A stretch of DNA of 64,000 bases from Streptomyces sp. YIM 121038 (GTDB lineage Bacteria > Actinomycetota > Actinomycetes > Streptomycetales > Streptomycetaceae): contig NZ_CP030771.1 of assembly GCF_006088715.1 (NCBI RefSeq), positions 6,467,501 through 6,531,500 of the forward strand, written 5' to 3'. The notes beneath the pieces were generated by a model. It did not search any database and was not told where the DNA came from. It worked only from the letters and a program-made list of their open reading frames with translations. Position 1 is the first letter of the stretch, and every line of letters begins with the position of its first letter. The translations under genes and the position numbers were made by a program. This document shows positions 50,260 to 53,880 of the stretch, one piece after another.

Positions 50260-50400
50260 GTCGCGCTCCGGGCGCGGATGCGCCCGGAGTCCGGCATTCC
50301 GCCGGATTTGCCCCGGCCTGCCCGGCGATCCGTCCGCTGACCGGTCACATCGGGCCGGGGCTCGTGGTGTCCAAGTGAAAAGTCAGTCCCCGCAGTGCCA

Positions 50401-50442
50401 CAGTGGCCGCGTTTTGCCAAATCTTGGCAAACGCGGCCACTG
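50401..50442. other. long hairpin in intergenic region (terminator or attenuator-like)
   Basis: CAGTGGCCGCGTTTTGCCAA pairs with TTGGCAAACGCGGCCACTG (one bulged T) around an ATC loop, 140 bp past the YbbN-like stop and 520 bp before the next start. No T-run follows. Confidence 0.6.
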
Positions 50443-50964
50443 TTACTTGGAGTAAGTCCGAGGTGGAATTCTGTCCACTTCTGTTCGTCAATATCCGGAT
50501 CATTCCGGTCTGTTGGAACCACCGTGTGTCGCTGATCGACGCCACGCCGTCAGGCTTCGGTTATCCGACCGTTACCGGCCAGTAATGAACCCCCTTGTGC
50601 GGGCGCCGAGAATGCACCACGATCGGCCACGCTCGGTCCATTGCCCGCAGCCCGACGGCCAGTCGGGAGACGGGTTTTCTGGGTCCCCACCGAGTAGGCC
50701 GGCGGCGCCGTCGCCGGTCTGGGACAGGGGGGTCTCTGCCCGTAGTCGCGGCAGGGCCTGTCCCGGCAGGGTTGTGCGTGATGAGTCAGGCGCGACCAGT
50801 GGTTGTCGCTCGGGGGCGATCGCCGGTGCCCCAGGCGCGATGCGTGCCTGGCGACACGGGCGCTCTCCTGACCGAGGACGTAGCACTTCTCCCATCCCCG
50901 CTCCGCTGAACCGACCCCTCGGGACCAGTGGGACGGAGATGTACGTCCGAGAAGGAGGAAAGTC
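50443..50964. other. long leader/intergenic region before the DUF6230 operon
   Basis: No gene with coding character is seen on either strand; open frames here have no usual third-position GC pattern or recognisable domain. The AT-richer stretch at 50443-50600 and a plain AGAAGGAGGAAAG site just before 50965 suggest promoter(s) and a long 5' leader. Confidence 0.5.
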
Positions 50965-51591
50965 ATGGAGTCCGTGGCTCGTGGCGGAACCAGATGGAAG
51001 CGGTTCGCCGTGGTCATGGTGCCGAGCGTCGCGGCGACGGCCGCGATAGGCGTGGCCCTCTCGCAGGGTGCGCTCGCGGCATCGTTCAGTGTGTCCGGTC
51101 AGCAGTTCAAGGTGACCGCGAAGGAACTCAACGGCACGGGATTCGTCCAGTACGGGGCGATGGACGTCGGCAATTCGGGCAAGCATCCGGTCGCCGTCGT
51201 CGGCATGGATTCGGCGAAGATCACCAATCTCTGCCAGTCCGTCGTCGTTCCGGTCCCGCTCTTCGGCGATGTGTCGATGAAGCTCAAGGCCGGTGGCGGC
51301 GATGAGCCCGTCCGGGCCAAGAAGCTCTTCATCGACGCCGACGACCTGCGCGCCAACGCGACGTTCACCAACGTCGACATCGGTGTCTCGGTCGACCGCA
51401 CGACGAAGGGCCCCGGTCCGAACCCGCAGGACAAGCCGGGCAAGCAGTACGTCCCGGACTCGTTCGCGCAGCAGGCCGAGAAGGTGCGCTTCACCGATGT
51501 GAAGCAGCGCGCGTGGGCGACCAGCGCGGGCACCTTCAAGCTCTCCGGCCTGCACATGTCGGTCCAGAAGGGCAAGCACGAGTGCTACTGA
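50965..51591 (+). CDS. DUF6230 secreted protein
   Basis: A 208-residue protein recognised as DUF6230 (sometimes labelled cholesterol esterase, without evidence I know of). Signal/anchor helix VVMVPSVAATAAIGVALSQG, cleavage near GALAASF, then a beta-rich domain with FVQYGAMDVGNSGKHPVAVV and a late Cys (HECY). Very strong ribosome binding site. First gene of a three-gene group with DUF6114 and an acidic protein. Extracytoplasmic; role unknown. Confidence 0.85.
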   Translation: MESVARGGTRWKRFAVVMVPSVAATAAIGVALSQGALAASFSVSGQQFKVTAKELNGTGFVQYGAMDVGNSGKHPVAVVGMDSAKITNLCQSVVVPVPLFGDVSMKLKAGGGDEPVRAKKLFIDADDLRANATFTNVDIGVSVDRTTKGPGPNPQDKPGKQYVPDSFAQQAEKVRFTDVKQRAWATSAGTFKLSGLHMSVQKGKHECY

Positions 51592-51798
51592 GGCGGTCGT
51601 CGTCTCGGTCTCCCCAGTCCCCCTCATCCGCTTCGCTCCACCGAGCCGCAGCGGGGACCACGGCCGAGGCCATCACCGGCTGAGCCGCACTCGTCGCGCT
51701 GAACGGCCGGGCGCGGGGGCGCCACGTCTTCAACCAGCCGTCCCCGTGCCCGCATCCGACACACAGAACCAAACGCCATACCCGAGGAGCTGTACGAC

Positions 51799-52374
51799 AT
51801 GAGCGCCGAAGCGCAAGTGGGCCTTGGTAGCAAGCTTGGCCGGATGCGCCGGGGTTTCCGGGGGTGGCGCGGTCAGCGCCCGTTCTGGGGTGGCCTGCTG
51901 ACGCTGCTCGGCGGCATCCCGATCATGTACTTCCCGTACGCGAACCTCACGCTCGGCACACTGACCATCCGGATGGCGACCACCGCCGGGGCCGGATCGC
52001 TGATCATCGGCGTGCTGTTGGTCGTGCTCGGCCTGACCATGTGGTTCCAGCCGCAGTCCCGCGTGTTCGCGGGCGTCGCGGCGATCCTGCTCGCCCTGGT
52101 CTCCCTGGTGGTCTCCAACTTCGGCGGCTTCGTCATGGGCTTCCTGCTCGCCCTCGTCGGCGGCGCGCTCGGCATCTCCTGGGTGCACGAGAAGCCACAG
52201 AAGCCCGTCAGACGGCGCGCGAAGGCGCCGGACACCGGGGGCTACGCCGGTGGCACCCCCCAGGCGGCGGCGGGGGCCGCGCCCGAGGCGGCGCCCGGGG
52301 CGGGCGGCACGACCGATGACTTGTCAGGAACGAGCCCGAGCAACGGGACGAACGGGAGGCACCGTGCCGACTGA
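51799..52374 (+). CDS. DUF6114 membrane protein
   Basis: A 191-residue protein with four hydrophobic helices (~30-50, 55-77, 83-103 and 105-123), family DUF6114: RPFWGGLLTLLGGIPIMYFP, GSLIIGVLLVVLGLTMWFQP. The C-terminal 60 residues are a Pro/Ala/Gly-rich soluble tail. ATG 51799. The next gene's GTG overlaps its 3' end. 207 bp after the DUF6230 gene, with no clear terminator, so operonic. Confidence 0.85.
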   Translation: MSAEAQVGLGSKLGRMRRGFRGWRGQRPFWGGLLTLLGGIPIMYFPYANLTLGTLTIRMATTAGAGSLIIGVLLVVLGLTMWFQPQSRVFAGVAAILLALVSLVVSNFGGFVMGFLLALVGGALGISWVHEKPQKPVRRRAKAPDTGGYAGGTPQAAAGAAPEAAPGAGGTTDDLSGTSPSNGTNGRHRAD

Positions 52375-53815
52375 CGAGGTGCGCCGCGGGACCGATGCGG
52401 TCACGTCCCGTGTGAGAACGGGGCCGCGCCACGCGGCCCCCAGGAAGCCGCTGTTGACTCGTGTACCCGTCGGCAAGGCGATCGCCCTCGCGGCCATGCC
52501 CACCGCCGTCCTCATGGGGATGGGGCTGACGCCGCAGCTTGCACAGGCGAAGCCCGGTGTGCCCGAGAACCCCTTCCAGGACGGGCCGTGCGTGACGGCT
52601 CCCGACGAGCCGTCCAAGGACGCCGAGAACGCGGAGAAGGCCGAGAAGGCCGAGAAGGACGCCGCCGACAAGGCCGCCGCGGAGAAGGCCGAGCGCGAGG
52701 CCGCGCGCAAGAAGCAGGCCGAGGACGCGCGGAAGCGGGCCGAGGACGCGCGGAAGAAGCCCGACGAGAAGGGCGACGCGGACCAGCCGTCGCCTTCGCC
52801 GTCCGCGGAGACTCCCGAGAGGGCGCAGCCGTCACCGTCCGCCGGTGCGGACAAGGGCGACGGGGCCGACAAGGCCGAGGACGGCACCAAGGCTCCGGAG
52901 TCGGAGCCGTCCGAGCCCGCCGACCCGCTGGACCCGCTGGGTGTCGGCGACGCCCTCAAGGACCTCCTGACGCCGGACGGGCCCGAGAAGGAGTCCCCGC
53001 GGGGCAAGGACGGCAAGGACGGCGGCGACGAGGACGCCCAGGAGGTCAGGGGCGACGGCAGCCGGGACGGCAGGGCCACCAGGCCGGTCGAGGACACCGT
53101 CGACAAGGCGAAGGACACCGCCGAGGACCTCCGGGACAAGGCCGACGACAAGGCCGACGACAAGGCCGACGACGAGGCCGACGACAAGGCCGAGGACAAG
53201 GACGCCGAGGACAAGGACACCGCCGACAAGGACGCCGACGGCAAGGACGAGGCCGACGACGCCGACGGCAAGAAGGACGGGGCCGACCCGGAGGAGTCGA
53301 AGGACCCCATGGCCCCGGACGAGAACGGCAAGAAGCCGTTCCCGTGCGTCGTGGAGAAGAAGGTGGACGGCGACGACGAGCAGTCGCCCGCGCCGATCCC
53401 GAACCAGCCGTGGCACCTGGAGGCCAGCTCCCTGCTGCTCAAGGGGGCCGACTACAAGGGCGTCGTGAACCTGAAGATGCCCAACGGCCAGACCAAGCAG
53501 GCGCTGAAGTACGTCATCAGCGGCGGCACGGACATCGGGGACCTGCACCAGATCGTCGACGGTCCGGGCGGCAAGAAGTACCACGTCCAGGCCGCCGAGG
53601 GCTCCATGTCCACGATCCGCAACGGCGACACGACGATGTACACCGAGCGCATCTCGGGCAATCTGTTCGGCCTGATCCCGGTCACCTTCGACCCGGAGCA
53701 CCCGCCGCCCCTGAACCTGCCGCTGATCTACTTCACCCATGTGAAGGTCCAGCAGGCGGGCCAGTTCGGCGGCGACCTCACCATCCCCGGCCTGCACCAG
53801 TCGATCACCGACTGA
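52364..53815 (+). CDS. secreted acidic repeat protein with conserved C-terminal beta domain
   Basis: A 483-residue protein. Signal/anchor at ~35-60 (GKAIALAAMPTAVLMGMGLT), then ~250 residues of Lys/Glu/Ala/Asp low complexity (AEKAEKAEKDAADKAAAEKA; KADDKADDKADDEADDKAED), then a folded domain from ~340 (QPWHLEASSLLLKGADYKGV) to the end, including LKYVISGGTDIGDLHQIVDG and YTERISGNLFGLIPVTFDPE. GTG 52364 after GGGAGGC, overlapping the DUF6114 stop. The last domain resembles that of the DUF6230 partner in outline only. Probably wall-spanning, with the folded part outside. Confidence 0.82.
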   Translation: MPTDEVRRGTDAVTSRVRTGPRHAAPRKPLLTRVPVGKAIALAAMPTAVLMGMGLTPQLAQAKPGVPENPFQDGPCVTAPDEPSKDAENAEKAEKAEKDAADKAAAEKAEREAARKKQAEDARKRAEDARKKPDEKGDADQPSPSPSAETPERAQPSPSAGADKGDGADKAEDGTKAPESEPSEPADPLDPLGVGDALKDLLTPDGPEKESPRGKDGKDGGDEDAQEVRGDGSRDGRATRPVEDTVDKAKDTAEDLRDKADDKADDKADDEADDKAEDKDAEDKDTADKDADGKDEADDADGKKDGADPEESKDPMAPDENGKKPFPCVVEKKVDGDDEQSPAPIPNQPWHLEASSLLLKGADYKGVVNLKMPNGQTKQALKYVISGGTDIGDLHQIVDGPGGKKYHVQAAEGSMSTIRNGDTTMYTERISGNLFGLIPVTFDPEHPPPLNLPLIYFTHVKVQQAGQFGGDLTIPGLHQSITD

Positions 53816-53834: not shown

Positions 53835-53880
53835 GACGGAAGCGGAGGGTGCCCCGGCCGGGGCACCCTCCGCTTCCGTC
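53835..53880. terminator. bidirectional terminator, 23-bp perfect palindrome
   Basis: 46 bp, both arms perfectly complementary, between the acidic-protein gene and convergent pyk. Confidence 0.93.

Follow-up and report, generated by a model that had tools for sequence, protein, structure and literature searches.

A conserved DUF6230-DUF6114-stalk protein operon of Streptomyces shares a putative operator with fatty-acid degradation genes

Here we report an analysis of three adjacent genes of Streptomyces sp. YIM 121038 (genome 11.1 Mb), encoding a DUF6230 protein, a DUF6114 membrane protein and a protein with a long charged stalk, which lie within a 64-kb stretch of contig NZ_CP030771.1 (the window; coordinates are positions within it). 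To our knowledge, the route by which fatty acids and hydrocarbons cross the thick Streptomyces wall to reach beta-oxidation is not settled, and with its three genes, candidate regulon and leader RNA the trio offers a way to test lipid passage. An original prediction made from the sequence alone, which proposed an envelope machine or surface display complex, was partly supported: its observation was right and its architecture largely right, and its guess at function was too general. It missed the che1 RNA in the operon leader, a palindrome common to this operon and beta-oxidation genes, and published induction of relatives on Tween and alkanes, and these three features together suggest a job for the trio.

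RESULTS

Genes and boundaries of the operon

The locus contains the following features.

50400-50443, unstranded: inverted repeat with 15-nt arms, the probable end of the upstream thioredoxin/TPR gene
50571-50586, unstranded: operator-like palindrome GTTACCGGCCAGTAAT, one mismatch to GTTACYNNNNRGTAAC
50721-50825, + strand: che1 RNA (Rfam RF02935) in the operon leader, 82.7 bits
50859-50893, + strand: near-invariant leader block, predicted from pairing energies to have two alternative partners, the 3' part of che1 and the ribosome-binding region (proposed switch)
50934-50964, + strand: near-invariant ribosome-binding region preceding the DUF6230 start codon
50965-51591, + strand: DUF6230 gene, 208 aa; N-terminal hydrophobic segment at residues 14-38, then a beta-rich domain
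51799-52374, + strand: DUF6114 membrane protein gene, 191 aa; probably about four helices
52364-53815, + strand: stalk protein gene, 483 aa, GTG start; hydrophobic segment at residues 34-52, charged stalk and C-terminal DUF6230-like domain
53387-53812, + strand: C-terminal DUF6230-like domain of the stalk protein, from profile comparison; AlphaFold2 mean pLDDT 94
53835-53880, unstranded: palindrome (arms of 24 nt) where the operon ends, ahead of the convergent pyruvate kinase gene

The trio is flanked by the thioredoxin/TPR gene upstream and the convergent pyruvate kinase gene downstream. Its first two products belong to their Pfam families, the first matching DUF6230 (PF19741) with an E value of 6.7e-60 (202 bits, curated cut-off 27.5) and the second DUF6114 (PF19609) with an E value of 9.3e-36 (123 bits, cut-off 27.9); the stalk protein matches no Pfam family at E values up to 1. 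As predicted, the three genes share one strand and the last two overlap, by 11 nt. The predicted 700-bp leader measures 705 bp (50260-50964) and is not one thing but a composite that includes an inverted repeat, the palindrome and the che1 RNA. An inverted repeat flanks the unit on either side (50400-50443 and 53835-53880), and none with arms of at least 12 nt up to 40 nt apart lies between the three genes. Nor was a terminator-like site found between them, by a search that yielded none in the whole region.

Conservation of the trio and variation in its third component

Of 548 confirmed loci, the best 80 were compared (79 from Streptomyces and one from Wenjunlia, 68-91% identical in DUF6230). 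Gene order and strand are kept in all of them, and in each the third gene has a start codon that gives an overlap of exactly 11 nt with the end of the DUF6114 gene. Wider sampling, which includes Streptomyces, gave the same picture. In an evenly drawn sample of 246 genomes of the phylum, DUF6230 was found above the Pfam cut-off in 16 and DUF6114 in 18; every DUF6230 genome is one of the 18, with the DUF6114 gene adjacent, and the two DUF6114-only genomes carry an adjacent DUF6230 relative detected with a broader profile. Among 394 genomes of the class, 84 encode DUF6230, 87 DUF6114 and 83 both. Genes lying mostly apart in related genomes had been named as the outcome that would count against a unit; the conserved order, the presence of DUF6114 in 83 of the 84 DUF6230 genomes and the gene fusions described below do not bear it out, and the evidence that the three genes form a real unit is strong.

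The trio is a less fixed set than had been supposed. In 35 further loci detected by profile search beyond the orthologous set, some of them second copies within Streptomyces, DUF6114 and the stalk-type C-terminal domain form one open reading frame (ORF) in 14 (L146, L147, L156, L187-L196, L202) and separate ORFs in three (L148, L203, L204). Four loci (L149, L200, L201, L206) have the order DUF6230-DUF6114-DUF6230-DUF6114 followed by a long DUF6230 protein, and all four long proteins match DUF6230 directly (E 4e-28 to 8e-6). In the six loci of lineage f18 (L150-L154, L160), which we presume to be Rubrobacter-like, the pair lies near a divergent large gene resembling wall hydrolases, and in the remaining eight (L155, L157-L159, L197-L199, L205) the pair alone was detected. 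The DUF6230-DUF6114 pair is the core of the system; elsewhere the third domain varies, being fused, replaced or missing.

By a simple hydropathy cut, nine of the 11 fused proteins inspected (of 14) contain a hydrophobic segment that separates DUF6114 from the domain, and those of L191 and L196 do not; this segment corresponds to the hydrophobic N-terminal stretch of the stalk protein in split loci. The genome of the window has a second copy of its own (L146, G000:C1:1919947-1921127), where another DUF6230 gene lies about 57 bp ahead of a gene in which DUF6114 and the stalk domain are fused; a che1 search of the genome gave none there.

The stalk protein ends in a DUF6230-like domain

The predicted stalk with a folded C-terminal domain was borne out. 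Across the 80 closest loci the stalk, counted from residue 71 to the domain, spans 175-321 residues and is rich in charge (D+E 23%, K+R 13%, VILMFYW 8%), and the domain of the window protein was modelled by AlphaFold2 with a mean predicted local distance difference test score (pLDDT) of 94. A profile of 98 stalk-type domains aligned end to end with one of 119 stand-alone DUF6230 proteins in hhalign (score 48.5, probability 93.5%, E 2e-7); the best of 200 column-permuted profiles, the null maximum, scored 20.7, a reversed profile 16.3 and DUF6114 12.4. When six-frame ORFs were searched with the stalk-domain profile in HMMER, the eleven best outside matches were all stand-alone DUF6230 proteins (best E 0.0033), with unrelated ORFs starting at a domain E value of 1.1. 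The reverse search with the DUF6230 profile gave E 0.028 for the fused protein of L202 and 0.1 or worse for other stalk proteins. Profile comparison thus identifies the domain as a remote DUF6230 homologue. The stalk domain model and the moderate model of DUF6230 (mean pLDDT 69) have no Foldseek match in the PDB at E values up to 0.001.

Hydrophobic N-termini and membrane placement

The first and third proteins had been described as secreted or exported, and their N-termini are better kept than the rest. In 62 DUF6230 sequences (the window protein and 61 of the 80 loci), identity to the window protein is 97% over the N-terminal 46 residues, 99% over residues 14-38 and 70% over residues 47-208. 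In the stalk proteins of the window and the 80 loci, residues 26-62 are 86% identical, against 56% and 64% on the two flanks. Signal peptides that are cleaved off and lost usually show less conservation than the mature protein, and the degree to which the DUF6230 segment (50965-51102) outlasts the remaining protein is unusual for a signal peptide. The hydrophobic N-termini of both proteins may for this reason be retained membrane helices that interact, although the leader RNA may also constrain the first codons and so add to this conservation. The four helices predicted for DUF6114 are plausible: the hydropathy cut shows only two in the window protein and up to four in its fused relatives.

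A palindrome common to the operon and beta-oxidation genes

Within 600 bp upstream of the trio, the best site for GTTACYNNNNRGTAAC has no mismatch in 63 of the 80 loci, one in 16 and two in one; among 1388 other 600-bp windows of the same loci, three have a site with one mismatch and none an exact one. Because the 80 loci are related, these counts show conservation and do not amount to independent evidence. A scan of 41 Streptomyces genomes for the strict form GTTACTNNNNAGTAAC gave 30 sites in 29 of them, against none for the reversed pattern and none in the genome of the window; DUF6230 lies beside it in 28 of the 29 loci fetched. Sites with one mismatch number 14 in the genome of the window (reversed control, 5) and 20 in a second genome, G023 (reversed control, 3), of which 15 were fetched.

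Some of these sites stand at genes of fatty-acid breakdown. Pfam cut-offs were passed by acyl-CoA dehydrogenases (L208, L213, L256), enoyl-CoA hydratases (L210, L254), a thiolase (L218) and a 3-hydroxybutyryl-CoA dehydrogenase (L252), and two further sites (L214, L260) lie at an Fe-S oxidoreductase that we take to be EtfD, though none of the 25 best NCBIfam models for either protein reached its cut-off. In eight of these nine beta-oxidation-type genes the gap from site to start is 1-53 nt; at L214 the called start overlaps the site. In the genome of the window, five of the 13 other sites are at beta-oxidation genes, against 2.5% of background 3-kb windows (binomial tail 1e-5); the background was 800 kb of this genome in 40 stretches, with five such genes, all acyl-CoA dehydrogenases. 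Counting genes that start close behind the site gives a tail of 1e-11 including L214 and about 4e-9 without it (4 of 13).

The other sites lie at genes outside beta-oxidation, as far as these could be named: an LLM F420-dependent oxidoreductase in two Streptomyces genomes (L207, L253; Rv3520c subfamily of NCBIfam for L207), a PucR-type regulator with a gene read as polyketide synthase (L211), a succinic semialdehyde dehydrogenase (L215), an S15 peptidase (L219 and L220, the same place), unassigned genes (L209, L251), and L212 and L217. In G023 they comprise an S41 peptidase (L255), a Succ-CoA-ligase-like gene (L257), an amino-acid dehydrogenase (L259), a site with no gene called (L258), and L250 and L261-L263.

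The trio thus appears to share a putative operator sequence with fatty-acid degradation genes, and we infer that one regulator binds all of these sites. Beyond the orthologous set, the f18 loci hold a FadB relative in five of six cases and a TetR relative in all six, within the 11-12 kb fetched, and the second-copy locus L146 holds an acyl-CoA dehydrogenase relative (tblastn).

Published expression of relatives

Statements on published work here and below refer to the passages of the reports that were covered. The trio had been credited with no known function, and this needs one amendment. We take SCO5420 of Streptomyces coelicolor to be the counterpart of the window DUF6230 gene because of the gene order, with the pyruvate kinase after the trio (SCO5423, pyk2), and of che1. 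SCO5420 is called a cholesterol esterase, and it rises almost 37-fold on Tween 40 relative to glucose (PMC7494193). More distantly, P21 and P16 of Geobacillus thermoleovorans, proteins of 201 and 196 aa with signal peptides that are recovered with the membrane, rise on long alkanes, and their authors regard them as alkane uptake, tolerance or degradation proteins (PMC2676291). This likeness was assessed from peptides, not full sequences: three of the six peptides published for them match DUF6230 profiles at one or other end of the domain, with single-comparison E values of 7.5e-6, 4.3e-5 and 0.0022 against the f18-type profile and at most 1 of 1000 shuffles as good with either profile. Taken together, a lipid link of the trio has good support. 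In the literature covered, which mostly excludes subscription journals, only two papers contain any of the names DUF6230, DUF6114, SCO5420, SCO5421 or SCO5422, and their passages give no description of the trio; nor was it the subject of a paper among the titles and abstract openings listed.

The che1 leader RNA

The che1 match of the window scores 82.7 bits against an Rfam gathering score of 54.1 and is a member of the family. Among 80 DUF6230-carrying genomes, surveyed with stricter filters that lose weak matches, che1 was found in all 40 from Streptomyces (38 over the cut-off) and in none of the 40 others, and 40 of the 41 matches lie 240-315 nt ahead of a DUF6230 domain. The RNA is listed before SLIV_11405 under 'cholesterol metabolism' in Streptomyces lividans (PMC8079986) and among the cis elements of Streptomyces ambofaciens (PMC8388888), and a study of Streptomyces clavuligerus terms its function unknown (PMC11678152). 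The present analysis ties this orphan Rfam RNA to a defined operon and to a signal that is physiologically plausible.

Two more almost invariant blocks follow che1 in 81 leaders, and the Rfam match of the window ends at 50825, before both of them. Over the 57 leaders aligned (of 81), the middle block is predicted to pair with the 3' part of che1 at a mean of -32.8 kcal/mol and with the ribosome-binding block at -30.2 kcal/mol; these two alternative partners suggest an on/off switch. Of 1000 shuffles of the consensus blocks, 35 and 0 were as stable as the two pairings, but so were 68 and 193 of the 903 other segment pairs drawn from the leader of the window itself. RNAalifold predicts the che1 pairing, with double changes in 3 of 64 pairs overall and the blocks almost invariant. 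On these energy predictions, a che1 RNA switch may be entertained as an idea.

DISCUSSION

We propose, with a probability of about 0.5, that the trio forms a membrane-anchored complex, probably spanning the wall, that deals with long-chain fatty acids, or with related lipids and hydrocarbons, on the outer side of the membrane. In this model DUF6230 would be a beta-domain without enzymatic function, either tethered to the membrane by its N-terminal helix or released, DUF6114 would serve as the membrane platform, and the stalk protein would carry a second DUF6230-type domain outward. Lipid binding, the crossing of the wall by the stalk and inward movement of lipid are parts that we infer. The complex would most likely feed lipids to beta-oxidation, perhaps via uptake; the shared operator would tie its expression to fatty-acid degradation, and the che1 leader RNA would probably provide fine-tuning. 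If so, it would resemble the lipid import and bridge systems FadL, Mce and Lpt in handling lipids outside the cytoplasm, although the Pfam scan of the three proteins named none of them at E values up to 1. Of the envelope machine or surface display complex first suggested, the unit with a membrane part and a stalk stands, and nothing found bears on surface display.

Several observations weigh against this proposal. The domain homology is weak with Streptomyces-only alignments (probability 25, E 8e-4), and a four-sequence profile of the third gene does not reach the stalk domain (probability 2.3). The beta-oxidation families counted at the palindromes were picked after the sites had been seen, and the reversed-pattern control does not separate the two sets (9 of 29 site loci against 1 of 8 reversed ones, with queries drawn from the site loci). 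Apart from f18 and L146, tblastn with the beta-oxidation queries found no relative in any of the other 28 loci, and outside Streptomyces and f18 the palindrome appears with at most one mismatch at L147, L195 and L196 only. The f18-type profile does not accommodate the other three P21/P16 peptides, for which 147-707 of 1000 shuffles score as well, and the two proteins, while induced by alkanes, did not respond to palmitate or triacylglycerol (PMC2676291). Two annotated cholesterol esterases, which may or may not be DUF6230 proteins, follow other cues: Sven_0933 of Streptomyces venezuelae changes with nitrogen supply (PMC3087709) and SACTE_4612 of strain SirexAA-E is up on xylose and xylobiose (PMC12772271). 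The literature passages covered report no lipid binding, transport or mutant phenotype.

The strongest competing explanation is that the trio is an envelope-barrier or wall-remodelling device, which strengthens or opens the wall and membrane surface on exposure to detergents, alkanes or free fatty acids without carrying them. It is kept open by the f18 loci, all six of which encode, on the nearby divergent gene, a protein of 814-945 aa with the wall-cutting domains transglycosylase SLT and peptidase M23; in four its N-terminal part matches a clean DUF6230 profile (E 6e-6 to 2e-3), the other two giving 0.6-0.7, and Pfam's own DUF6230 model gives only E 0.16-0.33 in three. Tween, moreover, is a detergent. 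The shared palindrome, on the other hand, stands at enzymes of fatty-acid breakdown, and no stress gene is among its 20 Pfam-scanned neighbours, so we consider a remodelling device possible but somewhat doubtful, and favour lipid handling.

The label of cholesterol esterase is, we presume, widespread on DUF6230 proteins, and it raises the alternative that DUF6230 is a secreted cholesterol or fatty-acyl esterase which the other two genes export or display. A serine-type enzyme of this kind has a Ser-His-Asp triad with its nucleophile in a GxSxG motif, and no such set is conserved here. The best-kept histidine of the window protein, H205, reaches 57% among 81 Streptomyces-type sequences, where none attains 60%, and no histidine column reaches 50% among 38 other stand-alone sequences (L146 and above, some being second copies in the genus). 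Seventeen of the 119 domains contain no histidine beyond residue 45, and 15 have a GxSxG motif. Two cysteines, C90 and C207, are kept in all 81 Streptomyces-type sequences and in about three quarters of the 38 others. With no well-conserved histidine and a rare GxSxG, a classical serine hydrolase is unlikely. Pfam names no function for DUF6230, and the enzyme label of SCO5420 is without support from conserved catalytic residues, which suggests that it is wrong; for DUF6114 Pfam likewise names no function, and in the scans made it marks only the membrane part of fused proteins. In favour of an esterase are the induction on Tween, a cholesterol esterase gene cloned from Streptomyces lavendulae (known here from a citation of Nishimura and Sugiyama 1994), whose product the N-termini of P21 and P16 resemble (PMC2676291), and the secretome of Streptomyces scabiei on potato suberin, where a 'cholesterol esterase', which may or may not be a DUF6230 protein, is the first listed of the lipid-metabolism class at 33-39% (PMC5158115). 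The Geobacillus authors, however, judged P21 and P16 not to be cholesterol esterases, and the moderate DUF6230 model has no significant Foldseek match; we rate an esterase as improbable. That the genes are neighbours by descent only, with no joint function, is suggested by the close relationship of the 80 loci and the eight of 35 loci with a pair and no detected third domain, and is very hard to reconcile with the fusions, the exact overlap, the co-occurrence across classes and the adjacent pairs on Rhodococcus plasmids.

In its widest form, the lipid-handling model would make the trio the first described members of a Gram-positive wall-spanning machine for lipid or hydrocarbon uptake, with a beta-fold not yet in the PDB, reaching beyond Actinomycetes into a separate class of the phylum and, via P21 and P16, into Bacillota, and controlled jointly by a beta-oxidation operator and an orphan che1 RNA switch. 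We offer this extension tentatively, and it is less probable than the model itself.

Two minor observations concern relatives. In Streptomyces albulus a DUF6230 promoter is among the moderate promoters screened as constitutive (PMC12835213). DUF6230-DUF6114 pairs also occur on large Rhodococcus plasmids (L264, L265), where they lie shortly behind runs of glycosyltransferase genes.

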